Of a stretch of 64,000 bases of DNA, positions 1 through 53,848 are shown in pieces. The stretch is taken from positions 7,303,605-7,367,604 of the forward strand of contig NC_052409.1 of the NCBI RefSeq assembly GCF_009389715.1, read 5' to 3'. Within the stretch, counting starts at the first letter, position 1. Each line of letters opens with the position of its first letter. The position numbers were made by a program, and so were the translations under genes. Source of the DNA: Phoenix dactylifera. Its lineage: Eukaryota > Streptophyta > Magnoliopsida > Arecales > Arecaceae. Below the pieces are notes generated by a model. It did no database searches, was not told the DNA's origin, and saw only the letters and a list, made by a program, of their open reading frames with translations.

Positions 1-3000
1 ACACATGATATGTAAGTACTAAATACACAGGGAATAGAGACAGGATTCGGACATTAATACCTCCACTGTTAGAAATTTCATGATCTTTTTGCAGTCTTCT
101 GAGAAGTTCTGGTCCTAGAGTTGCTATGTCACCTACACAAAGCAATATGAAGATACTGAATTTTCTCTTGAATGGCAAGGCATCAAACAAAACAGCTTTC
201 TGTTAGTGTATTCTACTAAAAACCAATTACCTGCACCTAGTGTTAAGATAATTGTGTCTTGATACGTATTTGATGGTATCTTGCGCACCAACTTATCAAT
301 CACATCCTCCTGATATTGAGAAGCATTCATTGAACACATGAAGAAATCCAAAAAAAACAGTAGCACAGGTAGATTATTGATGCTCAATAGCAGTATTTAA
401 CTCAGATCTAAGAAAACTTTTAAGCAAATTCTGGAGGCAGTATGACTTGCTACTCAAGGAATAAAGTTATAAAGTTATACTTCAGGAATGGCAAAAAACA
501 GACAATCGGCATGGACTTATAGTGGTGATATGTTATCTTGAAATGGAGAAAACTGTATTTGCATACCAGTTGAGGAATATATTCAGTTGATGGACCCCTG
601 ATTAAAGTTACCAGGTGGCTTCCACTAGAATTCCAGTTATTTATTTCTCTGGCAGCATAAGTCTGGAATATAAAGTCAACTGTTAGCGTTTATGCATCAT
701 AACCAAGTCTGTTCACAGAGGTACGGTAAGCTGATTAGACGTAGCACCGACATACCTCAGTTACTATCACATAATCTGCAGCACTGAATGCAGTAGCAAA
801 ATCTTTCATCAATGCAGCTAGACGGCTACAAAACACATTCACCATGACAGTTCAAGCACATTAGCATAGAAGGCCAAATTATCCAAAAGACTGCAACCGC
901 AGCTCTCTAGTGATCCTTTCAGTCAAACGTATAACCTGAATGTGTGTGGTTGAAAAACCACCCATAATGGTTCCAATGGAAATTTCTGTCGTGCAGCTTC
1001 GAGGACAGCATGAACTGCTGTTGGATGATGAGCATAATCATCATATATCTGGCATCCATTTACCTTACCAATCAACTCAAATCGTCGAGATACTCCTTCA
1101 AATTTACTCAAGTGGTTCCCCACAGAATTGATCGTTTCATGGACACAATGTCTGTCATTCACCAATGTTGCCACTGTAGCAAAGACCTACAAATCAGAAT
1201 GTGAGAAGCAAAGTTAAGAAATAATCGCAGCATTTTGAAAGATGAGATTGCCACAACAAAGATAACAAGAGTATATATAGTAGTAATATTCCAGCCTTTA
1301 TTTTAAACTTCTAAAATTTGAAACCAGCAGAACCATGAGTCCATAATGTCTCTCTCGTATTCCATTACTTTACAAGTTTAGCTACAACAGTGAAAAAAAA
1401 ACTAATCCAAGACAAACTTTACTGGTTCAACTGAACAATACATTATTCTAAGCAACTTTATGTTCATGGCTTCATGCATTTATGAAAATAAGATTTCTGC
1501 ATGCTAGGGATACCATCCTCCTTGCTGGACTCTGAATCTGACACGCTAATGCATCAAACACTCCTCAAGATGAATTGAGATCACATTCATGGATACTTGT
1601 GCAGCAACATCAGTTTGATGGATGTGATATTCAGTTTATGAAAGATGGCCATTGTTAGAGCCAAGCCAGTATATCTCCATCTGGCAGTTTAAGCTGGAGG
1701 CATAATTTAAAGTGGCTTGTTGATAGAAGTCTACCTCAATATCTGAACTAATAGCTGGAGTGAGATCCTAAACTAGTCACAAGATTGATCAGGAAGGCTT
1801 CTAATGTCCTCAAGATAGCAGATTTCTCATTGAATGTTCTTGGGCCATACTTGATGAGAAGACAGATTCTCATACTTGGATATAAGCAAATCAAGAATGT
1901 AACAGACTAGCAGACAGAGGCTTGAAACGAGGCATTTCCTTTTCTTTTCGCATCAAACCAAAAGAATGTAATTATTGAAAGAACATCTTCAATATGTTCA
2001 GTGGAGTGAGGTGATGATTCAGTAGAGTTTTCTTTAAACCTTGGAAAAACTCTGGTTTAAGAAAGGGTCTAACAGGCAGCCAGGCTAACCATGAATGCTT
2101 CTCAAGCCTCTATGGCAGTAGCAAAACGCCAAGATGTCTCTTCATGCAATCTGGCTTCTGTTTATTTGGAAAGTGGCATCTTCAAGAAAGTAAACCATTC
2201 TATAACCTCGTCTTTACCCATGAAAATTTCAAAAGAATATAATAAATTCTCACTAGTTTCTGACAAAAAACTAAATGAAATACATTCATATGATGTAAGT
2301 CCTTCATATATATGCATACTTGAATTTATGACCTAACTAGATCGCATGTCTGCCCCAATTCCAACAATTTCTCCATAGATCTTAATACTTATGATTTCTG
2401 ATATTTTGCAGTCAATATCTCATGGTTTCACTTACAAACAGGCAATACTCTCTTTAGATATAAATGTGCAGGGACATGATACCTACAAGTGGATGCTCAA
2501 ATGGTTATGTTTAATTCTTTTCAGATTTTTATGTAAATATTGTTTCTGATTCGATCAAATAATATCAATTTTTTGAAAAAAAAGTTTTGTGCCATAAGAT
2601 GTCAGTTCTGGTTCCACTCATTTTCACTGACACCAACTTGGTTCTGATTTCTAATATCCAAAACATGTTCCAAATTAAGATTTCAAATGTGCTCTATGAC
2701 TAGAAAATTTTGAACCTATTCTATAACAAATATAAGTTAAACTGTTAAAAAACTAGTATACTAACCACTATGATGTTGACGAAAACAAATAAAGAGAAGG
2801 GCAGGAATTTGCTCATTTTAGTTTTCATTTCCTGACAAACAAGCTATTGAAAAAGAAAACTTCTTCCCAACATTATTTTCTTCATAGAATTTGCAGAATT
2901 GTCAAGATTTTGTTGTCAACCTTATAAGTAACAACAGCATATACTAACCGCCAAAGAATTAAGAACATTATGAACTCCTGGCAAAATCAAACTGATGTTG

Positions 3001-6000
3001 GCAATCCGGCATGCCTTGTAATACTGCAAAAATGAAACATTATATAAGGTAGTGAGATCATAAAATACTCCTTAACATGGGTATAAAATTTCATGAATGC
3101 AGTGAATGAGTTTAAATACTGCTTACTGCTACCAAACATGTAGATTATTTTATTTAATGAAATAGCCTCCAAAATTATGACAGGTACTTTTCATAACTTC
3201 CCGATTTCAGCAAGAAATTAAAAATTCGGGAAAAGGATATTTCTTGAGACAAAAATGGAAAACAACAAAAAGATACCAATTTTATTGAAAATATACTAAT
3301 TTCATCAAAAGAAAATACTGCAATGGAATAAAAATAATGATGAATTTAATGTCAAATGCCTTTCCACTACCAAAGTTAGGAGCATGTTGAAGTATGCCAA
3401 CTGACTTGATATGCAGAAGGAGAAAAGGAGCACTTCTAGCAGAGATAAATGACGGAAAGTAAAATGATTTTGTCTGATGGTAGAAAAAACAACGTGACCA
3501 TCAGACAGGCACAAACAATTAGTTATAGACTTCTCATAAACTTGCACATGCTACAGAATTAGTGAATAAAATTTTTGCTAGAAGGCAAAGTGCATAGGTT
3601 GCAGTAAATTATGATCTACACAAAGAAGCCAATGGATTGTGCTAGACATACTTGCACAACAAAATTGAAACAACAATTTCATAATGCAAGAGAAATCGCA
3701 CCCAGGGTCAGCAGAACCGTCCCGAACTGCTCGGTTTAAGGCATCTCAAGACGTACCGGCGGCGGACTGGAATGGTTCCGACGACGAAACTGAGACACCG
3801 TAGCCGGAGGGAGAGAAGGAGAAGGAAAGAGAAGAAAAGAGAGCGAGCGGAGGAGAGAGGGAGAGGGAGAGGGAGGGAGGCCATCGAAGGCCGTTAGAAG
3901 GTCGGCGGAGGCTGACGCTCGGCTAAGAGACGGAGGCCGTGGCCGGGTTCCTGTATCGAACGAAACAGGGGTTCGACCGCTAAAGAAATTCGCGATTTTT
4001 AAGTGAAGTCGAACAAAACAGGAGACCAGGCCACGGCCTCCGCCTCCTGCCCGGGCTCCGACCTCTGCCACCCTCCACCAGCCTCCTCTCTCCCTCCCTC
4101 TCTCCCCCTTCTCTTCCTATCTTTTTCTCTCTCCCACGTTCTGCATTCGCCCTCTCCTGTGTCAATACAGGCCTGGCACGGCACAGCACGGACCCGTACT
4201 GACTCGTGCTGCCAGGCAACCGGTACAGTGCCCGGTATCGGCACAACAAACCGTGATCGCACCTAGGCAATTCAACATGCTATAAAAGAATAGACAATTG
4301 AATGCATTGGTATATGACATGACAAACAAATAAGGGAAAATTTGATAGCAAACATAATATACTAGCAATGACAAATTTAATATACCCCATTGTTTAAAAA
4401 AAAAAAATAACAATTCAGATACTTACATAAGTTAGATGCAAAATAATGCACTAACAACATAGTGCCATCAGGGCATACAGTTGATCACACAAATTGTTAT
4501 AAAATTTGAAATCAAAATACATGAGTATGATATTCAGATTTTTAAGTCTTCTGGAACTCAGATGACATAATCACTACAGTATACTAAATGAGAAGTAGCA
4601 AGTGGAACATGACTGCATAAGCAAGTGATCTGCCTCTCAAGCTTGTCTCTACAGTCAGCCTACTAAAGTTACAGTCTGTTTACAAACTTAAACTTTCTAT
4701 CAAATCCTTTCTATATGCATCAAGCAATCTACAACAACAAATCATCTGAAACATGATATGAACAAGTAAACTACCCCTGAATCGATTATTAATTCATTTA
4801 TAATTCTTTTAAAAAAGAAAATTATGGTAACCATGATGTTTGTCTGAAATGACTAAGAGTTGCTTTCTCTTCCAACATAGTTCACACAGCTGTCTTTGCT
4901 CCCCCATACATCTCTAAAAGTATGATATACACATTTGAGATACCTCTCTTCCGTATCACTTATAAAATGAACTCTTTTGGTGTTTTCTTATACCTATCCA
5001 CAATCACAGACGACAAACAACAATGACAGTTCTTTCCTATTCAATTTGTGCTAGTCCTTGTTGATTTCTCTTCCTCACTCAACAAACTTATTCATGTTTC
5101 AGAAGTGATACAATCCATTTCATGGCAAATCATGTACCTCTGCAAATCTCATTCTATTTTCTTTCATCTAAAATAAATTCTTGAGTTAATTAGAATCTTA
5201 TTAAGTAGATACAAGGTTCGCGTCTCAGTACCGGACCTCGTACCGGTGCCACACTAGCACAGTGTCGGTACGGTATGGTACGTGATTTTTTTGACGTACC
5301 GAGTGTCAGTACGCTTTCCGTACCAAGTACCGGTACCCAACCGATACGGTATGGTACGCCTTGTACCGTGCAGTTCGGGCTGGTACGGCATACCATAAGT
5401 AGATCAATTAAATAAAGAAACCCAAATTCCTCTATAATCTTCTATATTTTTCTGGAATTGCACTTAAAATCACTCCCAAACTTGTAATTTCTGAAAGAAA
5501 AATTATTTCTTAAATTGTTGTAGCATGTTGCATGCATCTGCAACCTACAGGCACTCCAATTATTTTACAAAGTCTCTTACAGATACAAGTATGGGTTTAG
5601 TTATTGATTGTTTACTTAAGAATGTATGCAGTGAGCATATGAACCATATATCTAGCATATATCAAATACTTATCAAATTTCAGAACATCCCATTGGGACA
5701 TAATATAAATGATGTTTTTAGAGATGGGGGATGTCATATTAACAAGAAGGTCAATTAGAACAACCAAGCCAAAATCCTGGAATTGGAATGACTCACCAAG
5801 ACATAATCTTGACCACCTTGTGAATTTGGAGTAATTGAGGATGCATGCCAGTCATTTTTGCTTGAAAGTCCATAAGTTGTTATACTGTAGCCATGATTCA
5901 ATATTGTAGAAGTTGAAATCACATTGCAGGAAACAGTCGCCTGCCTAGACTCGCTCAACAATGCATATGCACCTGCACTGAACTTCACTTTTCAGTCAAT

Positions 6001-7854
6001 TTTAATAAAAATATTAAAAATATATCCATTTGTCTTGAGTAGAGTGGGGGAAAATCTTGACCTCATTGCAGTGGGTTATTACATTAGACGTGGTTCACAA
6101 CTCAATAGGGGTTCCTTAAGAAAAAAGAAAAAAGAGAATACACAAAGAAATAAACAGACAATAGCACATCTTTTGCGGTAGTCTGGTTGAGTTGGAGAGG
6201 ACCGAGTAACTATTTACTAATTCACATTTTCCCTTTCCATATGAATTATACAAACTATCATTTGCTTGGCATATGTAATATACACCCGAACAACTCATAA
6301 TGATCTCATGTGTCTACATACATACTAAAAGATAGATAGATATACATGCAAGCATGCATGTGGGCACACATACATACATAAATACATACATGTGGATACA
6401 TAAACACACATATATATACACTAGTTAAAGTGCATGAAGAACTAATACCTTATAGGAAAAAATAAATTTATAAATTTAAAGAGGGTTGCAAAAATTTTAG
6501 TTTATTAGTTTCAACAATTTGGGTTAGTGTAATTGTGAAAAATTTAGTTTAGATTGGAATGGATTGGATCATTGTTTAGTAGATTTTGGTTGACCCAATC
6601 CATGTGCACATACATACACACACTAGTTAAAGTGCATGTGCTTATGCATGAAGAACTAACACCCTATAGGAAAAAATAATTTTATAAATTCAAAGAGGTT
6701 TGTGAAAGTTTTAGTTTATTAGTTTCAACAATTCGAGTTAGAGTAATTTCAGATAAGGGCTTCTAGATATCAAAATCTGAGTCATGATTGAAACAAAAGT
6801 CAATTGAAATCTTAGTCCAGATAACTTTGGTTTAGATTCGATTGGATCATTTAATTCCTCCACATGATATTCCTGAGGGTTTTTAGCAGATTTTGGTTTT
6901 GAAGCGGTCAACCCAAAGCACTTGCTGCCTTGATTGGATGGCTTGGTTTTTTGGAAAATACTTCAATTTTTTAAAAGAAAGGATCTTAATATTGGAAGTA
7001 AAATATTATAATAGTATTTTGGGAAAAAATATATTTCTATAGTGGTATCTTGGAATTGGAGATATGATTTTTTTTGTTAAAAAAAGAAACTTGACTTTCT
7101 TCCTAGAGGAAGCCCCAAAACATTCTCTTGTTTATGTCCATACATAGTTTAATGGAATTTGGTCTTGATTGTTGGAGTTTCAAGTCTACTGTTTTAATGA
7201 TCAGATCCTATAACCTATCTTCCCTTCAAAACACTCTAAGCCCATCCCTTTGGCTTGCATTACTGAAGTTTTATACTGGATCATTCCAAAACTTTCTGTT
7301 GGCATGCTAAAACTGTCAGAAAAGTTGTCGTATATCAATATACACACATGCCATAAAATTATATAATATTTAATCATAGTTGCTAGCTAGGATATTACAT
7401 TTATTATCAAAGGAATGCAAGAACTTGTATTCAGCTCTCTTGAAAAAGCGAACTCAAAGAATAAATGAATTAGACATGTTATAAGCATTTAAATTTTAAC
7501 ATGTTAAGATATATGTATATATGAAAAGAAAAAAGAAAAGAAAATGTGTAAGGGAAAAACTTTTGTTGGGTAAAATGAGTTTGGCAATAGGTTCACTGGC
7601 CAATTTCTCAAAAAAATGAGTTTGGGAATATTTGTGCAAGCTTGGTCAAGTAACAGCAAAGTGGTGCCTAATTTAAGGTTATAATTAAGCAAACTGATGA
7701 TACACATATCACCATCACCGTGCAATGCATGAAGGCATTTGAGATATATTTTTATTATTATAAGAATATTTTAAGATAGGGGTATTTTGAGAGAGCGGTA
7801 TTTTTAAGAATGGCAAAGTTTTCACACAGAACAATGGTACATGTATAGTTTTTA

Positions 7855-7909
<55 letters not shown>

Positions 7910-10900
7910 GTGTGTATTACATACATATATATACACATAATATATGTACTATATATGTATCATATATATATGTATGTCTGTATGTGTATCTATTCAAATG
8001 TGCCTAAGAAATATCTAATATGTGTTAGCATGAGCGTATAATATCAATTAGTTGGATCACTAGTAATACAAATTGCAAGTTATAATAATTGATACTTTCT
8101 TATAAAGCTTCAGATTATACTCTAGCATTCTCAAGCACAAGTCTAATTTAGGTTACGGTCCTTGGATTGTAAAACTGCATTTAATTTGCCAGCAGCATTC
8201 GTGCATATGAATCTTATACAAAATCATCAGAAAGGACACATATACATGAACCTACGAAAATAAAAAACCATGATAGAAGATGAGGAACAATACCCCATGA
8301 TCATGGGAATGTATAAATCATCAATGCATCCCCAAGGTCTTGGAAGTGCATAACCATGTTTTTTAAGCGGGTGCACTAGGGAGATTGCACGATCCTCCAA
8401 CTACAGAAGCAATAAAGTGTATGTATCCTATCATACCGTGTGCAGCATTGACAAAAACCAGAACAGACTTACAAAACATCATCATACAACAGAAAAGATA
8501 TTGTAAGAGTTTCATATTTAGTAAATAGAATTATTGGATTGCTTTCTACTTATAGTTATATACTTATCCAAATAATTCAAGCAATTGGAGATCAAATTGA
8601 ACCCATGGTATAGGGCACTAAAATATCACAAAAAGTAAGACAAAAACTATAAACAAGTCTAAAGTACATATTCTTGTATTAACGAATGTTAAATTGAAAA
8701 AGGCAAATACTTTGAAAAGAAGTATTTATAAGTTTCTCATTATTGGCTTCGGATAACAATGATAAGAACTGTAATTTATAAGGTAGTAATGCACCTACCT
8801 GTCACCACATAGTATGAGGTGGCCACCAGTCTTAATTTGACGAACAAACCTTCTGAATATATTCTGAACAGCCTCCTAGTGAATGGGAAATACTATGTAA
8901 GTATGTGATTCCCAAAGAATAAAATGTAAGTACGTGATTCACAAAGAATTTCAACTTGTTAACTGAAGATGTTATTATAATTCTGAGAAACAAGAAGTTC
9001 AAAGAAACCTCATCCTCAAAGATATCAACATGGTCCCATTCCACATTTGTTACAACAGCAATATAAGGTGATAATCCAAGAAAACAACTATCATATTCAT
9101 CAGCCTGCACAGCAGGATAAAATTATTAATGGAGCTCTACTATATAAACATGTTAAAAATGATAGTCTTAGAGAGGAATATGCCATCCTGCAAATCTAGG
9201 GACTGACGTACCTCCAAGACAAAGTTTGGACCACTTCCTGAAATAATATTTCCTCCTGAAAACTATAGAAAGTAAATTCTAGTTGGAATGAAGGCCCCAT
9301 CAAAACAACATATTTATATGCATAGTATGTAATTTAGACATAAATATGAGCCATGTATTTTAAATACATATAATACAAAAATAACCCCCAAAACACATGA
9401 TTTATGTTCTAACTTCTACCTATGAGAAAATGTAGATCATGTTCCATGGTATGGATTCTCAATTTAAAATGTCCATCCTGGGTTTTGCACCAAGAATTTG
9501 AAGCTTCAGTTCCACTCAGAGTTTCAAATTCACTGAAGCCACCATCCTAGCAAGAGCATACTAGTTTAAGTGGACTATTAAACATGTTTAAAATGCCAAG
9601 ACACCAAGAATAAAATGTTTTTGATATTTCTATATATGTTCCAAAAAAGAATATTTATATATGTATGTCCCGGAATGCAAGATACAATGTCTAAATTTGA
9701 TCTATGGTCCATAAGCATCCAAATTAGTTGATATTTTATGTGTGTGTGTGTGTGTTTTAAGATGTCTAGTTTAAGAGCAATGGTCTGCGTATGTGCATAC
9801 ACATGTAAGGCCCCTATGAAACTGTCCACTGTGCGCTTGGTGCAACATGAAGAGATTTCTAAATGGCATGATTTTCTGTTTATAGAAATTTTAAATGTAG
9901 TGTATCATGATTAACTGTACGAATCTTCAATTATCTTCAATTTAAAATATCCATCATTGAATTTGCACCATCAGGGTTGGATTCTAGCCTCCTACTACCT
10001 AGAGGATGCTAGCTCATCTCTCTCTATAAATAAATAAATAAGGATTCTCAATCTCAATAATAAACAAGTAATAGTAAATATCATTGCTAAGGATCTTAAG
10101 TATTCTTGATTATGGTGTGCTGCAACCATGATTTTTCATGTACCAAAGGGGAGAGTGATTACTCAAAGACTTTGATCCCATTCAGCAACTGATAGATTGT
10201 ACCAAGTTTTGGGTATCAGGATTTTACCCAGAAAAAAACATGCATATGAAACATCATGATTGGTGCACAAATAGAATATATAAATGCATGATGCCAATTG
10301 CTGAAGTTATTTATCTGCTAGTAGCACAGACTTCTGCAATTGGTGCATAATTAATGTGTAGATTTCAAACCAACTATTTATTTTATCAATATATGCATAT
10401 GCCTCACAAGCATGATATTGCATAATATTTCATGATATATCCTTCATCTGTAAGAAGAACATTTAAATTCAGTTAGTATTCCCAATAAAGGTATGTTTCA
10501 CTGAAAGTACTGGCTGGAGAGCATACTTGAGGCACATTTGCTCCAACTACTGCAATAAGATCGTCCCCCATGGCACCCAGAACATATGAAAGCATTGCTG
10601 CTGTTGTACTCTTTCCTATAATAGTAAGATAAGAATGATTATGATAGCAGCTGATTAGGCTGTAATAAGGCATAATAAGATTGAAGATTCTTGGATTCAA
10701 TTCCATGTATTGTAGAAAAAAATAAATGCTCAAAAAGCAAAATCGGAAGATATAATACTGCTGCACATGAAAACTCTTTAATAGCTGTGTTATTATCTGT
10801 TTCAGGAGTTTTTTGGTTTAAAGAAAGTAGAATGTAAGGTGCATTTTATATCTCATATGTCTTATTTTATAAAATGCTGTCAGTATAGTCAATTATTAAA

Positions 10901-13900
10901 TTAATTTTAGCACTCTTAGTATTTCATGGTTAATGATATAATCAATAATTACTGACTAACGTAAAGGTCATAAGAAGTCAGAAATAAGAAAAAGAAAATA
11001 TAAAATAAATCTCAAGATGTGAGTGAATGCAGATCTTGAGTACTAATTTGGAGATTGTTAAATGTCTTGTATTTATCTTGGATAGTGATCTCATAATATT
11101 TCTGTTCAACAGTGATCTCGGAATATTTCAGTCAGATAGTTATGAAAGAACTAATGCGTGCCACATGTTTGTGATGACTTGGCTTAAACTTCAGTCAATA
11201 TGCAAAAATAAGCAAATATTCAATACTCATTAAATATGCTACTGGACAGACATGAAAAAATAACATGCAAAAGAATATACGCAATATACACTGTATATTT
11301 ATATGTAGAAGACGCATGTAATGTATGTAACAATATTAAGAAAGCCTGGTTTTTTCTTTTGACCATATGAAGGATACCAGATTTTGAGTGGTTGTTAAGG
11401 TTTTTTATGTCCCTATTGATTGCCAGTGGGTTCCATATGTTTCCAAAATGAGGTCATTGACTTACGTAGTGATGGTCGGTCGCCAAGTCTCTTTATCAGC
11501 ATTGAAACATTTGTTGCACAAAGTGGTTATTCATCAAGAACCCTTGGACATACAAGGTTCCTATTACCATCTGGCCAGAACTGTAAATCAATATTCTAAA
11601 GATCGTTTGAGTTGACCAAAGAACCTATGAAGATTGGTTCACTCAAATATTTGCAGGAAACCTTGGTTTCAAGAAGGCTGCACTACTCATCTCATGCGCG
11701 TTTTAGATCCAAAACACACAGTTCTTTTGATTCTAAAAGGATGAAACATCTGCTTAAAAAAGAAAAGGGAAGAAATTAAAAAAAAAGGAAAATTTTCATA
11801 AATATAATAATGATTTCATATTTACTTGGGATACTTTGGTTTATTCTGGTGGATACCATCCTAGAACTGGAGCCTTTTTTACTGATGAATCAATCTGTAT
11901 TGAGAGGTTCAAACAATTTCAGGGAAGGGTTTAAATGCTAGTGCCAACCCCTATATCTAATTTGGTCATGGAATGGAATGGTACCAAGTGCTACAGTCCC
12001 GACTCTTCTTGGTACCATAATGGGATGCTTTTTTCAATTTTTTTACTTTATTTTAATGAATTTTAATGGATAATAATATGTTTTAATATCCTTAAACAAG
12101 TTTCTCTCCCTCTATCTCATGCTTTGTTTCAGCCTGAGGCATGCTACTGAAAGAGCCCAGGAGAAAGGAGATAGTGCCCCCTGCTGCTGCTGCTGCTCTC
12201 TCTTTTTTTTCCAAAAGAAAAAAGCAATCCGTCGGATCATGCCTCGTATCAGCCAAACCAGCCTTAGTACCAGCCTGTCCCAACCAGTTTGGAGCGAGAC
12301 GAGCAGGACATCCCGGCGCACGAAAGAACTGGTGTCCAGTACCTGACACACATATTCTTCTCTCTGTGGAACAGTGCAGTACTGGCAGAAGGGGTTGATG
12401 CTACCAGTACCTGAAATTGAATTCTTGATTTCAGGCCATCATTTTCACACTAAAGATCCTGACAAGGTTAGATACTTTCCCATAACAGCAGACTCCCATT
12501 CTGGTTCTAAATTATGTCAATTATATGCTTGGCCTATTAGAGATCAACATGATTTAACCAAGAATGTGGATAATCTGGCATATTGCAGTTTGGAAGTACA
12601 ACCTGATTAAGGATCAAAATTTGGAGGTCCAGGATGACTGGCAGATATATTAGTTTACTATACTAACACACATCGAGATGTTTCATATACTAGGTATGTC
12701 AAACATATTATCCAAGCAAATATGTAGAGATATTGTTTGTCAATATAAGTGATGCCGCATTGATAAATTGAAAGGATTTCTAGATCAGCAACTTCATGCA
12801 AAAGATCTTGACAAGGTAAAATAAGGCATCCCGATGCACGAGGCTCCAAGCCTTGTAGGGTTTGAGGAGGGTCAGATGTACGCAATCTTATCCATGCGTG
12901 CGGACAGATTATTTCTGTATTTTGAACCCATGACACCTAGGTCATAATAGAGAACATACAATTGCGCCAATGCCCACCCTCAAGATCTTGACAAGCTCAA
13001 TAATTTTATTAGGTTGAAGATAAACCAGGTCTAGTGTTGAGATCAATGGCCAAAACATGTTACTAGTCTACTATTTATAGACTGGGAAGTTTGAAATGAA
13101 GCCAGATCCAAGATCATCCTGCACCGATCAAGTTGCAAGATAGAAAGTCAACGGTCAGAGACCATAATAGAATTGACTTCATTGAAAAGGTGGAGACTAT
13201 GAAAGCACTCACCCCATATAATGAATCGAAAGATCAGAATGGCAATAGAAATTTTGTAAAAGAAATAGCTTCCTTACTTCCATTCCAAGCTTGGGTGTTT
13301 CAATATCCCAACTCCAGGCTGAGGAATGCTGATGATTTTTCAGTCAAATTATCATGGATAACATGATTTAATTGTTCATAGGCATATTTTTATTCCCTAA
13401 CCCAAGAAAAGGGGTAATTTTCACTACTTCATTCAAATAGTGGTTGCTATTCTTCTTAGTAAATTTATGAGGATTTTATGTGCTTTTATCCTGTCATTCT
13501 TTCTTGCAGTTCTTCAAGTAATATTCTTATAAAGGCGCACCAGATAGTATTAGCATAACATTAAAAAAATACAAAATAAAGAAAATAATTCGTTTGGCAA
13601 AGAAAGGATACCATGGGTTCCACTAATAGCAATAACCTTGTGCTTCTCTGTGATTTTCCTCAGCCAATCATCTCTCTTGTATCTGAGCAATATAAAGGTA
13701 ATTAGTTGAACCAATGATGGAACAGAGCATTTGAGCAACTAATATTTCAATTTTTTCACATACTTGTAACTTGAATTAAGCAATGTGACAAAAGTAATCA
13801 TTAATAAAATAAGAAGGAGATCCTTTTTTGACATATTCAAAAGACCAGTCTTTATTACATGCGGTTCTTGTGAACATCTGACTATGTGGAAGTAGTTGGT

Positions 13901-16900
13901 CCAGAAAAAGAAAAATGAAACAAAAAAGGGGGGGGGGGGGTGCGGACATGTTCTATATTATCTGTCATATGGAAAAAATAAAGTTCTACGGTTCTACCTA
14001 ATGCAGTAAGACATTTACTAGAAGCACGATACACTTCAAGCTCCATATATTGCAGATAGGAGAGGATATTATGGACATGTCAAGGTCTCTCCTAATGTTC
14101 AATAGAGATGCCTCACATGGCTATACAATAATATGAATTCTTTCCGATATGATGAATGACCTCCATCCAATCAATTTATCAACAAAGCGGTAGATGAGAG
14201 AACAGAGGCTAAAGGCCACCCTATCAATGTTATGCTCCTGAATATGGAGTAGGCATGCAGGATGGATCAACTAATCTTGTATAATCAATTAATTCAACAG
14301 GTTCAATGACCTACAATTGGACATCTCAGACAATGTGGTGATTATTGATGTATTCTTCACAACTACCAAGTTTGGATCTCTTGGGATCACATCATCACAA
14401 GATATTCACAATAGTACACATCTACGGATAATTCTAGAGTCTCATGTACATACTTCACTTCATTATCTAGTGATCTACCATAACCTTTTTCAAGAAATGA
14501 TATCTTTAAAAGTTTGAATGTCATAATGTTTGTTTCACAAAGTAACATGCAAAAATAATTTCTTTTTTTTTGTAGCATGTCGTAGCATGAATACTTCATA
14601 TCTTTGGCCAATGTGACACATTTCTTATCAGGGAACATGCAAGATCTGATGGAATATCACAATATGATTGCTGTGTCAGCTAGCTCGCTTGTACCATTTT
14701 GACAAAATGAGCTATGTTTATTCCTTAAAACTGAAAAGAATACACCAATTAATCTATCCTAAAGGAGTGTGTGGACCTGCGCATGCACATGCAAGAGGAG
14801 AGAGCATTTCCGGCCTTACTGTTGATTATAGCCATTTCAACTCTATGTTCTTTAACAATAATGGGTATTGGGGTACTGGGACGAGTTTGCAAATGCTAGC
14901 TTTCAGGAATTATTGATCTGCATCACTATCATCCCTGATATGTTGAGAATTTTTATATTGGAAGATTCTGTGTACTTGCCAAAGGCCTAAATGCATCTTA
15001 TACATAATAGACATTTTACCAGCTAGAACAATGAATCAAACATCACCAAAGTGACTATCAAATTCTTAAGGGAAATTGAGAATTCATAATATAACACTGA
15101 GCAAGAAGGGTATGGGCTAGTTAGCCAACTGTTGATAGGACATGTATTACAGAAATGATCATAGCAACGTTTTGAATCTTGAACTACTATTTGTAGCATG
15201 TCATCAAATTCAGACGATAGATGCCCTACACGCACTTGCCAGACATAAAAGGAATGGATAGCATCCAAATATATAATGACATGGGAAAAGGGAAGTAATA
15301 ACAAAAATAAAGAAACTTGTCTCCACGAACACATAGGGAATACCATGCATAAAAGATGTAGGAGTACATCATGCTAATAGAACTAGACATCCTTTTTTAA
15401 CACAGGAAAGGAAAGAAAAGAATGAAAAAACAACTAGAGCACAGCATGCTTGGTAATTTATTTAGATCATGCACAAGACCTCAAGTTTTCAAATGTGCAT
15501 TATCTTCATTTGACTTCCAAGACATTATACCATCTTGATGATCTTAAATTTGATTAATCAAGATTGTTGTGAAATTCATAACATTTTCTCATTTATGATG
15601 AAGAGGAAAGAGGAAAGATCTAGCACAGCATCTAATACTTATGCACAAAACAGAGGCATGGTTTGCACTAATTACATAGGGGACACCAAGCAACTGCAAT
15701 TTTATGAGGTCCAATACCAATCATGTCAGATGTAATGAAAAAAAGGTGCTCATTCTTCGCTTCATTGCTGTGATTGGTGCACACAAACTAAGCAATAGAC
15801 TGACATTAAAAATTTATTTTCAATTTATAAAACATAATAATTTTGTTGGAAATTTCGTACATGATGAGTTATATCAATGACCAATATGTTAATTTACATT
15901 TGTATTTGTTAAATAAAATGCCAAGTGTGGTTTTCTCCATACATAAAAAGGCTTGTAGCATAAAAAGAGACAGAGCAGAAAGTACCAACATTGGAATTCC
16001 CATTAACTTTGCATGTACAATCTCCTTATTATCTGCAGGAATAGCACTAGAAACAACAACCACATTAGGTAGACCAGATCCAGCACTCCTTTCCATATTC
16101 GATGCTGAGTGCCCTATAAATAACCTTGCCCCAGCTTTATGCAATCCATCCATAAATCTACCCCACATGATATCCGAGCCACTAACTTCAAAGCCCTGAG
16201 TTTTGATATAGAAAATCAATAAGGTTCTCCATATTTTAGAGGAAAAATGAAACTTTTCCCAAGAAAACTAAAGACAAAGAATTTATACCAATAACATGCT
16301 TATTACATGCACGCTGAACAAAAATTACAGCCTAAAATTTATGATAGCAGTAGGCCAGTAGCATGTGTTAAAAAAAGAAGAAGAAGGGAAACCGAGGTTC
16401 CTGCCATTGCGGTTCTGAGAAGGATCAGATGTACGGAGTCTTAATCGAGAGGTTGTTCCAAACTCATGACACCCAGGTCACGATGAAGCGGACTTCCCAT
16501 TGTGCTAAGGCACACCCTCCAGGCCAGTAGCATGTATGAAAATACTGTGAGGACTCATGCAGGCGTGTGTTTAGTTCCATATTGGTTATTCGCTGAGTAG
16601 ATCTTGAGCACTTATACAGGATCAAGGAACTCAAATAATACCTTTCAGCTAGCCAGTTTAGGTGAGATTGGGTTGTTACAAAATGGTACCAGAGGAGATC
16701 CGACCCATATAGGGGACACTGCAGCATGACCCATGCAGGCGTGTGTTTAGTCCCACACTGGTTATTTGAGTCTCGGAAGACATGAGAATATAACAAAATG
16801 ACAGCAATGGGAACAAGAACAAGAAATGATAACGACGTAGAGGTGGTTGTTTAAAATTGATCCAAATCCAAATTAAAAGAGCTTACCTGTTTGAGAGCCA

Positions 16901-17210
16901 GCAAAGCAAGTGCCGATAAACCGGAGCCTCCGATACCAACGAAATGAATCCACCCCTTGTTCTTCTTCTTCCCCTCCTCTTCGCCATTTAATACCATCAA
17001 ATCCTCGCCATTTGTATCCGCGCCTTTGGCCGCCAGGGGAGCGCATTGGCCTCGCGAAGCCGAGCCGCGGGCGCGCAGAGGAACTCCTCTCCCTCGCCTC
17101 CGACATGAAAAGCCCGTACAAAGGATCGGAGCGGCAGGCCCCAGTTTCGCCCGAGTTGGAACGGCCGGCGAACGGCCGTTGGCGGCGGCGAGAAGAGCGC
17201 GGGATTCCAT
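1..17210 (-). CDS. MURC: MurC-like UDP-N-acetylmuramate--L-alanine ligase, plastid-type (3' end beyond window)
   Basis: MurC ligases add L-alanine to UDP-MurNAc using ATP, the first peptide step of peptidoglycan synthesis. Exons inferred from homology and splice sites, in coding order: 16887-17210, 15990-16195, 13612-13682, 10527-10615, 9212-9262, 9009-9104, 8799-8875, 8294-8400, 5797-5884, 2949-3023, 936-1186, 756-825, 567-662, 231-309, 61-132; the last may read past position 1 or splice to an exon outside. About 584 codons are visible. Exon 1 carries an Arg/Ala-rich leader of about 85 residues like a plastid transit peptide, then the UDP-binding HFVGIGGSGLSALA. The P-loop GTHGKSTT lies near residues 198-205. 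Later come NVEWDHVDIFED, PGVHNVLNSLA, RRFE, DDYAHHPTA and FQPHT. DDYAHHPTA and PGVHNVLN favour MurC over MurD/E/F. The exon 7/8 junction is out of phase by one base (see findings). Homology is certain; activity is inferred. Confidence -1.
3695..4263 (-). mobile_element. 553-bp GTACCG-family element with foldback arms in a MurC intron
   Basis: The 8-bp direct repeat ATCGCACC at 3695-3702 and 4256-4263 flanks a GC-rich insert (3703-4255) in an AT-rich intron. Inside, a GA-rich arm (about 3803-3880) and a CT-rich arm (about 4077-4158) face each other. A perfect 13-bp inverted repeat, GGAGGCCGTGGCC, sits at 3932-3944 with its complement at 4029-4041. On the minus strand its end (GCAGTTCGGG followed by a GG(T)-rich tail) and its start (GGTTTG, then GATACCGG) resemble the smaller element at 5208-5396. 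Small size, 8-bp duplication and no coding capacity suggest a non-autonomous hAT-like or unclassified element; strand is set by that resemblance. Confidence -1.
5200..5404 (+). mobile_element. 189-bp GTACCG-rich element with 8-bp target duplication
   Basis: AAGTAGAT is present at 5200-5207 and 5397-5404 on either side of 5208-5396. The insert is full of GTACCG/CGGTAC words (for example GTACCGGTGCC and GTACCGAGTGTCAGTACG). It shares long stretches with 59005-59132 and its termini with 3703-4255, so it belongs to a dispersed family. It has no ORF and no poly-A tail. An 8-bp duplication fits hAT-type MITEs, but no convincing terminal inverted repeats are visible. Confidence -1.
6420..6750. repeat. 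Diverged direct duplication of about 125 bp
   Basis: Segments 6420-6542 and 6622-6750 are imperfect copies in the same orientation. Both start ACTAGTTAAAGTGCATG and continue through TATAGGAAAAAATAA and TTTTAGTTTATTAGTTTCAA. Each is preceded by a CA/TA-rich simple repeat, which may have driven the duplication. It lies in the long MurC intron between the exons at 8294-8400 and 5797-5884. No coding content. Confidence -1.
7858..7906. repeat. (AT)n microsatellite
   Basis: A pure alternating AT tract of about 48 bases, followed by a short TG run and more TA-rich sequence, in a MurC intron. Likely polymorphic in length. Confidence -1.
11978..12410. repeat. Probable diverged GTACC-family element in a MurC intron
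   Basis: A perfect 11-bp inverted repeat, ATGGTACCAAG at 11978-11988 and its complement at 12008-12018, can form a hairpin with a 19-base loop. Farther right, 12106-12350 is GC-rich relative to the intron, with a CT-rich stretch, a (CTG)n run near 12182 and GTACC words such as TTAGTACCAGCCTG. Composition resembles 3703-4255. No target duplication was found, so the boundaries are approximate and family membership is tentative. Confidence -1.
12802..12995 (-). mobile_element. tRNA-derived SINE, Au-like, with 14-bp target duplication
   Basis: AAGATCTTGACAAG is repeated exactly at 12802-12815 and 12982-12995, bounding a 166-bp SINE. Read on the minus strand it begins GAGGGTGGGCATTGGCGCAA (box A-like), has ATGGGTTCAAAAT (box B-like), then GTACATCTGACCCTCC and GGAGCCTCGTGCATCGGGAT, and ends T-rich. 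From memory, this order and a T-rich rather than A-rich 3' end match the plant Au SINE family. It sits in a MurC intron, in the same orientation as the gene. Confidence -1.
16352..16535 (-). mobile_element. tRNA-derived SINE, Au-like, with 15-bp target duplication
   Basis: AGGCCAGTAGCATGT is repeated exactly at 16352-16366 and 16521-16535. The 154-bp insert on the minus strand reads GAGGGTGTGCCTTAGCACAA, then GTGACCTGGGTGTCATGAG, GTACATCTGATCCTTCTCAG and a CTT/T-rich tail. It is a second, more diverged member of the family at 12816-12981. It lies in the first MurC intron. Confidence -1.
16556..16766. repeat. Possible LTR-retrotransposon remnant with 35-bp direct repeats
   Basis: Segments 16556-16590 and 16732-16766 are near-identical (both start CATGCAGGCGTGTGTTTAGT and end TGGTTATT). 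Between them is GGGTTGTTACAAAATGGTACCAGAGG, written here as a description of the 16663-16692 area; the TGGTACCAGAG word at 16684 resembles the initiator-tRNA primer-binding site that follows many plant LTRs. No protein-coding remnant is present, so this is a weak call. Confidence -1.
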
Positions 17211-33074: not shown

Positions 33075-36386
<3,312 letters not shown>

Positions 36387-50649: not shown

Positions 50650-52019
50650 TTACAAAGATGATGAAGGGAATGAAGTAACTATACTGTCCATATTGGTTGG
50701 AGCTGTTAGGAGGCTTTCTCCACCAAGCGATCCTTGCATTTGGTCCCAAATAAGAAGGCTGGAGTACTGCTGTGAATCCACCCATTCATTCAGCTCTTGC
50801 TTCTCAAAGCACTCCCTACTTGGGTCCCCATCATCTCCCACACAACATGGCTGTGCCTCCATGGGCACCGTGTTTCCCATGACATCGACCAAGGGTGGCA
50901 GATAGGTTGAGTCCATGCTGCACGAGAAGTTGAGGAGAGGGGGCAGTACTTGATCTTGATGCTGACTAGGGTTCCACAAGCTGGAATTTAGGGTTGTGGC
51001 ATCTAGCTCATCTTTCGCACTGCTTCCCGGCCGGCTATCACCGGTGCTGCTGGTGTCGAACATGAAAATAGGACAATGAGTGTGGAATATGTTCTCAGGA
51101 GCTGGCTTTGTTGATAAATTTTGGTTGATGATGGCATCCAGTTGATCAACTGCAGTGTTGAACCTTGGCTGGACTAGCTCTGTATTTTGTGGACTGATCG
51201 ATGGAAGCGTGGTAGGTTTTTGTATCTTCTTTTTGATCCATGAATTCCAATAGTTCTTGATCTCATTGTCGGTTCGGCCGGGCAAGTGGCTTGCTATGTG
51301 AGCCCATCTACACAAGCCACCATGCAAGCTATTTAAATTGTAAGGTCTAGAATTGCAAATTTTAGCTAGGACTTTATGCATACAACCATATTGGACTATT
51401 TTTTTCAAAAAAAGAAAACGTAAGCCTTAAAATTAAGGCCATTTTTCAAAACACTTGATGTAGATCTTTTTTTAAAAAAAGGGCAATTGAAAACAAGCTT
51501 GCACCAATTTCATGCAAGCCAAATGGATGTGACACCTCATTAGAGCATACTTAATTCGAGATAGAAGATGGTTTCCATGCAAAGCATATAAACGTGCGAT
51601 CATCACATCCTTGTGTGCCAAGACACGAACAAAAGGAATAAAGTAGTGTTTCTCAAACCTATTTCCAACAATGTTATGAAGGCTGATAATTAACTTCTCC
51701 TCCTCTGGTGTAAACCTCCCTCGTCTAATGTCGGGTCTCAAGTAATTGATCCATCTCAAGCGGCAACTCTTCCCACATCTTTGGAGCCCTGTGGGACAAA
51801 GCACAAAGGAATGAGAACCTTATAGAAACGACCTACGTAGTTTCCCATTCATGTCTGCTAGAGATAGAGAGAGAGAGAGAGAGGACCAGCTTTCTCTGGG
51901 ACTTCACTCCAGCAGCCATAGCCATGGGTGGTGATGTATCTGATGAGCTTCTCATCTTCCTCAGGAGACCAGAGGCCTCTCTTGACCTTCTGTTGGTTGC
52001 AGCAGGAGTGGTGACCCAT
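50650..52019 (-). CDS. MYB103: R2R3-MYB transcription factor, MYB103 orthologue
   Basis: Arabidopsis MYB103 acts in the secondary-wall network and promotes syringyl lignin formation. Three exons, 51887-52019 (133 bp), 51659-51788 (130 bp) and 50650-51307, match the canonical R2R3-MYB exon sizes and join in frame to 306 aa. The protein starts [20 protein letters not shown], has the R2 core with [20 protein letters not shown] and the R3 core with [20 protein letters not shown], and ends in a divergent tail with [18 protein letters not shown] and a final [24 protein letters not shown], the WIKKKI segment and the tail motif are those of MYB103 rather than MYB26 or MYB46/83. It acts as a nuclear DNA-binding protein. 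The start is set by the conserved MGHHSCC. The introns are 98 and 351 bp. Confidence -1.
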
Positions 52020-52222: not shown

Positions 52223-53349
52223 CGGATGGGTCCTACCTTCTTGGTCTCCTTACGTTCTATCTAACCCTACAGCGACTGGGCATCGGACACCCCCTTCGCT
52301 CTCTCTCTCTCGTGCTAGGTAGACTGGTCCTAGTGTACCACTTTTAGGTACAAAGAGCCAATACTTCAGCGATCGCCAGGAGTCAATCATGAGAAGACGA
52401 GGTATTGTAATGTCTAAAACTAACAGTAAACGATCTGCCGACAGCAAGCAACGTATCCATCATTTAGCCGTCAACTTGTTTTAGCAGCTGCTACGTAACA
52501 GAGACAATGGCTCCTACTTCATAATTTCGTTATTAAGCTCAATAAGATCTTCAAATAATAAAAAAAAAGCTCCATAAGATTGTCTGTAAATTCATACAAG
52601 AATTAGTTTTGATTAGTGAATAATCATATAAGAAAAAGGTCGAATGTTTCATAAGAGTTGTTATAATGTTTAATTTTGTTTCCGAATAGACCTAATCCTT
52701 GCATGAGATCGAAAAACATTCAAAAGGGTTCATGAGAACTTACAACTGATATTTCCATCATTTTTTTTTTTTGAGGACATCAATTTATTTTTCTTTTTTT
52801 CTTCTTTTGTACAAGAGATACCAGTATTATTGGAACCTTGATGAGTAGCCTCTCCATCATTGTTTCACAAAGACAACTAATACGGAACCATAGCACCATC
52901 CTATGAACATTGGCGCCGCACTATCCTAGATTCTAAAGGATCATATGGTGAGCGATCCAGTTCAACTTTGGAGTAACAAAGGAAAGATTGACCTGGGACA
53001 TGGTCACATATGTAAGCTTGTTAGCTAATTTGGTGGTCCTCCATTGTCAAGACAGACAGACCTCATGGTATGTAAGAGATGTCTGTACTCCTAACTACTA
53101 TTTTGATATGACTTATTTGACATGGCCTTATAATCTGGGGCTCACAATAATATAAGCCACTTTATGGTGTATATCGCAGATTATGTTGTATGTCTAAACA
53201 GAGATAATTGAGTTCATCTTCAACCATCATAACTTCATTTTAGTGTTCCATGATTCTACTAATTACCCCAAAAAATTCTTTTATGAGCATTGTTGGGCCT
53301 ACATTCACATATAGGATTGCATCGACTAAATTTTTTGTGCTTGAAAAGG
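52223..53349. other. Region upstream of MYB103, no gene seen
   Basis: AT-rich with homopolymer runs (T-run near 52765). It should include the MYB103 promoter nearest 52223. No recognised element or gene. Confidence -1.
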
Positions 53350-53848
53350 TGAAGGTGGCTGCAGGTGTAGGCTTTGTCATACGGGGCCCGCACTCCAGGG
53401 CAGTGGCTGCAGGTGGCTGCCAGTTGTTTGATGCATCGGTTCCCAGAGCAAAGCTGCGTGCAGCCTGGGCGGGTCTTCGACATGCGCAGGTAGTGCTATG
53501 GGCCAGCTCGATTATTTTGGAGGGTGACTCGGCCACTGTCATCGGGTGGATCCAGAGGGGATTGGGAGGTGAGGGCACAGACCACCCCTTGATTCGCGAC
53601 ATTGTGATGATGATGAGAGATGGGGGGGCCATCCAGGCCAAGCATGTATTCAGGAAGACCAATGGGGCAACCAATTGGGTAGCTGCCTACGCGGCCCACC
53701 ACTCGGGTATGCCCTCTGGTCAGGGGAGAGGGAGTTGCCATTGGTACTCCGTGAGTTATTGTATTTTGATCTTATTGGGTGTATTCGTACCCGCACTGTA
53801 TGAAGCATCCGTATTCAGCAAAAAAAAAGAAAAAAGTTGAAGGTGGCT
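53350..53848 (+). mobile_element. 5'-truncated LINE (RNase H end) with 11-bp target duplication
   Basis: TGAAGGTGGCT is repeated exactly at 53350-53360 and 53838-53848. The insert encodes the LINE RNase H C-terminal region in one open frame (GVGFVIRGPHSRAVAAGG, AKLRAAWAGLRHAQ, LEGDSATVIGWI, HVFRKTNGATNWVAAYAAHH) and ends in an A-rich tail at 53820-53835. The open frame over this length suggests a younger insertion than the copies at 30569 and 37564. It lacks the reverse transcriptase and cannot move by itself. Confidence -1.

Follow-up and report, generated by a model that had tools for sequence, protein, structure and literature searches.

Can a flowering plant keep a working MurC, the ligase that joins L-alanine to UDP-N-acetylmuramate in peptidoglycan synthesis, and if so, what would it make with it? 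The question is raised by a 64,000-nucleotide stretch of date palm (Phoenix dactylifera) DNA (NC_052409.1, positions 7,303,605 to 7,367,604; hereafter the window), at one end of which lies a gene of the MurC family. The analysis confirms that this gene is by family a MurC (UDP-N-acetylmuramate--L-alanine ligase), and that it is real and intact. Judging from sequence, its product is likely a working enzyme, nuclear-encoded and plastid-targeted, that was inherited through the land plants; that the gene is expressed, that its product enters plastids and is active there, and what the pathway finally makes are matters that we infer.

Structure of the gene

The gene lies on the minus strand and has 15 exons, 14 of them at 17210..61 of the window. 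Its reading frame is open over 586 amino acids with no internal stop, all 14 introns are GT-AG, and the joined translation is identical, letter for letter, to the database protein P0001 (Phoenix dactylifera), whose source name is UDP-N-acetylmuramate--L-alanine ligase-like isoform X1. The initial annotation had described an intact gene of 15 exons, and the exon count and open frame bear this out; the end that it gave, position 1, is the edge of the window, and the gene continues beyond it. When the protein was searched against the genome, all 13 matches fell at this locus, so that within the reach of this search there is one copy of the gene.

The exons, all on the minus strand, were delimited by joining them into a continuous frame. 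Exon 1 (16887..17210), for which the identity to P0001 also speaks, holds the ATG, a leader of about 86 amino acids and the start of the core (HFVGIGGSG). It is followed by exon 2 (15990..16195), where a donor at CCAAT/GTTGGT keeps the frame open into exon 3, in agreement with the database protein; an alternative join of these two exons gives the wrong frame and was discarded. Exon 3 (13612..13682) ends within the P-loop, at GTHG, and exon 4 (10527..10615) supplies the remaining KSTT. Because an intron splits the motif in this way, a degenerate P-loop pattern found no match on the window. Then come exons 5 (9212..9262), 6 (9009..9104, with ADEYD and TNVEWDH), 7 (8799..8875), 8 (5797..5977), 9 (2949..3023, with PGVHNVLN), 10 (936..1186, with RRFELIG and DDYAHHPTA), 11 (756..825), 12 (567..662), 13 (231..309) and 14 (61..132); motifs served as a second guide for exons 3, 4, 9 and 10. 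The three motifs on which the gene had originally been recognized, GTHGKSTT, PGVHNVLN and DDYAHHPTA, are thus located in exons 3/4, 9 and 10. Exon 15, with 23 coding bases including the TGA, lies 108 bases outside the window (C18:7303497-7303475, or 8498-8476 of the flanking locus L004).

Identity of the protein

The protein carries the Pfam domains PF01225, PF08245 and PF02875 in order, each above its cut-off. Among the 21 NCBIfam families listed for it, murC (TIGR01082) is the sole one to exceed its own cut-off, with 397 bits against 335.1; the runners-up are a MurC/Ddl fusion model (216 bits), mpl (181), murD (82) and murE (67-71). The best sequence matches in the PDB are bacterial MurC proteins. 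All seven of the residues that we take to be catalytic (K130, E174, H199, N293, N296, R327 and D351 in E. coli numbering) are present. An AlphaFold2 model, built with 20 sequences and having a mean predicted local distance difference test score (pLDDT) of 74.7, with residues 1-82 below 50, retrieved MurC crystal structures at each of ranks 1-20 in Foldseek. Its template modelling (TM) scores with the E. coli and H. influenzae chains of 2f00, 1p31 and 1p3d are 0.87-0.92 by target length, the value for 1p3d_B being 0.92.

In domain order, catalytic residues and predicted fold, the date palm protein is therefore like bacterial MurC (TIGR01082; E. coli 2f00, H. influenzae 1p3d), and its P-loop reads GTHGKSTT where that of E. 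coli reads GTHGKTTT. It differs from the bacterial enzymes in that the gene is nuclear and divided into 15 exons, the protein has an N-terminal leader, and the ligase activity is a predicted one.

The leader is basic and poor in acidic residues, with 10 K/R against 1 D/E in its first 50 amino acids. This composition fits a putative transit peptide, as had been proposed when the gene was first noticed. Constraint was judged from protein identity in the core and the leader: date palm and oil palm MurC are identical at 436 of the 480 residues of the core, and at 64 of 85 in the leader. By this measure the date palm sequence appears to be constrained, and the initial description of the gene as a monocot MurC that is conserved and spliced is upheld.

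MurC in other plants

The initial annotation regarded MurC as unusual for an angiosperm and as possibly special to this lineage. Neither view is supported by comparison with the best 120 of at least 7128 homologues (from 7997 scored candidates, a capped number), the set to which the homologue counts in this report refer; for taxa we used its named rows, leaving out P0005, P0083, P0089, P0106 and P0112. These rows include water lily, magnoliids, 14 monocot species and many eudicots, with conifers at ranks 88 and 108 and moss and liverwort at 118 and 119. Grasses, crucifers, legumes, cucurbits and daisies are not named among them. One member, P0109 of Prunus dulcis, belongs to the MurC family and bears the source name septum site-determining protein MIND, perhaps a naming error. 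A tree of 38 rows pairs date palm with oil palm (support 99) and places the two within ten monocots (97).

The literature, which we cite from excerpts of the papers, points the same way. Angiosperms with nine of the ten peptidoglycan genes are described in papers from 2016 to 2025 (PMC4815162, PMC10784329, PMC9954125, PMC12681378), and these also agree with the set that the initial annotation gave for Arabidopsis, namely MurE, MraY, MurG and Ddl. Vascular plants with the pathway except for the penicillin-binding protein (PBP) were reported by van Baren 2016 (PMC4815162). MacLeod 2023 (PMC10784329) lists full toolkits, PBP orthologues included, for Thuja, Asparagus and Citrus; the 2025 paper on the spruce Picea abies (PMC12681378) restates the nine-gene angiosperms together with a transglycosylase-only protein, so that the Asparagus and Citrus proteins are PBP orthologues in the one account and transglycosylase-only in the other. 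Angiosperm MurC sequences are already in use in a paper on Frankia murC (PMC7231273), and Dowson 2022 (PMC9434261) has moss as its subject. For date palm itself, we found nothing on Mur genes among the papers listed, supplementary tables aside. MurC in date palm is accordingly known in kind: nothing out of the ordinary among flowering plants that have retained the set, and already in the databases.

Companion genes of the pathway

The initial annotation had proposed a search of the same genome for the other pathway genes. We compared E. coli K-12 proteins with 16 date palm loci and the window; other places of the EPSP-synthase family, three weaker MurB places, one place on C8 and locus L014 were left out. 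The companions are known as homologous exons, MurC being the one complete gene model. MurA is found on contig C4, where residues 3-415 of the E. coli protein are covered in four pieces at 38-57% identity; MurB on C8 and C9; MurD on C1; MurE on C2, C5 and C18; MurF on C125 and C457, near-identical and perhaps two haplotypes; and MraY on C4. NCBIfam scans concur for the MurE, MurF, MurD and MurB pieces. The matches for Ddl and MurG are weaker. E. coli DdlB matches C11 and C4 at 25-26% identity (E 0.004-0.005), and the profile PF07478 finds two loci (E 3e-6 and 4e-6); MurG appears as short pieces only, with PF04101 at five places and 37-amino-acid pieces of the E. coli protein at loci L039 and L040. 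Most of the pathway is thus present in the same genome, and the absence of all of its genes with many disabling changes in orthologues, one of the outcomes that had been named as speaking against the initial reading, was not seen. MurA to MurF and MraY of the published nine-gene angiosperm set all have homologous exons here.

For the later steps, the transglycosylase domain PF00912 gave six exon matches that form two loci of three exons each, on C15 (L053) and C8 (L054). Both loci retain EDRRFFYH.G and RKFVE, which we take to be transglycosylase motifs of functional meaning. The transpeptidase domain PF00905 and MurJ (PF03023) gave no match in the genome, in an exon-by-exon search that had bacterial positive controls only and that an exon-split gene could escape. 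The date palm searches therefore returned a transglycosylase without a PBP transpeptidase, and did not return the bifunctional PBP and MurJ that go with a moss-type cross-linked plastid wall.

In this, the date palm resembles the angiosperms described as having the full set minus the PBP (Asparagus, Citrus, Nicotiana benthamiana and others): it has homologues of MurA to MurF and MraY, weaker matches for Ddl and MurG, and transglycosylase loci with no transpeptidase found. It is unlike those species in having its ligase-type MurE as a short gene of its own. With the moss Physcomitrium patens it shares MurC, the remaining ligases and a second MurE-like gene (PMC12681378, PMC9434261), whereas the moss has a PBP and MurJ (PMC12681378), for which date palm gave no transpeptidase or MurJ match.

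Three MurE homologues

The three date palm MurE homologues lie at C2:24.11 Mb (L045/L007), C18:2.365 Mb (L005) and C5:11.64 Mb (L006). The C2 copy has the long acidic N-terminal part of the PAP11 type, which is tied to the plastid RNA polymerase (PMC12681378, PMC9434261), and shares 94% identity with a Cocos protein across 550 columns. In both palms, its ligase motifs are eroded relative to E. coli MurE (GTDGK for GTNGK, DDAR for DYAH and GCCGESE for GCGGDRD). The C18 copy (P0121, 674 amino acids) is of a short type and retains GTNGKTT, DYAHTPD, GCGGERDMGKRP, DNPR and GKGHE. The C5 copy has diverged, with GNPK and SSVG. About 153 kb from the short C18 gene, C18:2517062-2520529 (L012) looks like a frame-broken copy of it.

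When E. coli is left out, a MurE tree of 29 rows unites the C18 and C5 copies (97/97), apart from C2. A palm-only origin of the duplication, in which the short C18 type was forced together with C2 and Cocos, was rejected in an approximately unbiased (AU) test (p-AU 0.00198), the clade having been named after the first tree and the test sharing the model's long-branch pull. Because of this grouping and rejection, the duplication seems to predate the palms. A long MurE with eroded motifs beside a short one with intact motifs, of such an origin, would fit a ligase pathway that is still being used. In the first tree (50 rows, rooted with E. coli), the C5 copy and the C18 type did not group, and each lay by itself outside the remaining plants; the C5 branch is long, and we are unsure of its placement.

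N118 or DYAH is missing in 37 of 174 MurE rows, a count that includes rows that are only gapped there and changes of Y to H or F. The affected rows include orchids (P0244, P0246, P0264), Canna (P0243), Spirodela and Momordica, so palms are not alone in having an eroded long MurE; in the rows of Dioscorea, Asparagus and Nelumbo both motifs are present. Orchids keep MurC although their long MurE is eroded, and Musa, of the same order as Canna, also keeps MurC. A tentative scenario, which we put at somewhat less than even, is that palms would use the long PAP11-type MurE for the structure of the plastid RNA polymerase and the older, short MurE with its ligase motifs for the precursor pathway together with MurC. 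Among the papers listed, we found nothing on palm MurE, or on such a split of MurE in orchids or other monocots. If true, the split would be a case in which nature has separated the two functions, and would argue strongly that selection still acts on the ligase chemistry itself in a flowering plant; it would also let the ligase pathway be studied apart from plastid transcription.

Function and alternatives

In the pathway that we propose, MurC would bind ATP in the plastid stroma, activate the carboxyl group of UDP-N-acetylmuramate (UDP-MurNAc) and attach L-alanine to give UDP-MurNAc-L-Ala, the third step of peptidoglycan precursor synthesis. MurD, the ligase-type MurE and MurF would then lengthen the peptide, and MraY and MurG would yield a product like lipid II, which transglycosylase-only proteins could polymerise without the cross-links made by penicillin-binding proteins. 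The end product is probably such a glycan, although we are less sure of this than of the ligase itself.

Several observations weigh against this account. Because transpeptidase and MurJ matches are absent from the genome, a classic cross-linked wall is doubtful. The leader was assessed from composition alone; moreover, the Tasmannia MurC model has no leader, that of Phalaenopsis has 33 amino acids, and those of Vanilla, Nymphaea and Salvia carry 5-6 D/E in the first 50. At least one of the seven catalytic residues is lacking in 18 of the 120 best homologues, 14 of them through gaps in the models only and four (P0047, P0063, P0107, P0111) through a change of letter. The structure at rank 1, 9ir5, has a TM score of just 0.64 by target length. 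Lastly, the E. coli-rooted MurC tree departs from the species tree near its root, with bryophytes and conifers beside monocots.

That the gene is bacterial contamination or a recent transfer from bacteria might be suggested by the bacterial nature of the MurC family. The introns and the tree refute this explanation: fourteen GT-AG introns on a plant contig of 9.8 Mb, and a position with oil palm inside the monocots, leave it a negligible chance. A decaying relic, with the frame still open and the function gone, would accord with the loss of MurC reported for many angiosperms (PMC12681378, PMC10784329). Such decay is nevertheless improbable, given an intact 586-amino-acid frame with regular introns, a core better matched to oil palm than the leader is, and the occurrence of all seven catalytic residues in 102 of the 120 best homologues, date palm counted.

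A more serious alternative accepts a working plastid MurC and contests the end product only. The ligase may serve a new use, in which a soluble or lipid-linked muropeptide acts as a signal, carrier or division factor and no wall is made. Such a use would suit a genome in which transpeptidase and MurJ are unmatched, and the Picea paper states that no angiosperm is known to combine the full set with a bifunctional class A PBP, and describes the four-gene set as repurposed by exaptation (PMC12681378). Yet the two transglycosylase loci with their motifs preserved would be useless without lipid II, and a ring-like azido-D-alanine signal in angiosperm chloroplasts is described in one paper, Tran 2023 (PMC9954125), which also reports labelled chloroplast envelopes and L-Lys in place of diaminopimelic acid in higher-plant material. 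We consider the new use unlikely, and a polymerised glycan without cross-links the better account of the end product.

MurC stands for muropeptide chemistry proper, unlike MurE with its second angiosperm role in the plastid RNA polymerase (PMC12681378). An intact and apparently constrained palm MurC lends support to the view, already in print, that the ability to make peptidoglycan precursors persists in some flowering plants. It also raises the question of what such plants build if transpeptidase and MurJ are truly missing.

Other features of the window and its flanks

Elsewhere in the window, an HSP90 open frame of 513 amino acids (804 bits) lies at 34845-36383 on the plus strand, and a Myb-like DNA-binding domain at 50653-51408 on the minus strand. 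An RNase H-like (RVT_3) piece at 53250-53837, plus strand, is probably part of a retroelement. Downstream of MurC, near 2717-4471 of L004 on the plus strand, a long open frame resembles, by eye, a copia-type polyprotein.

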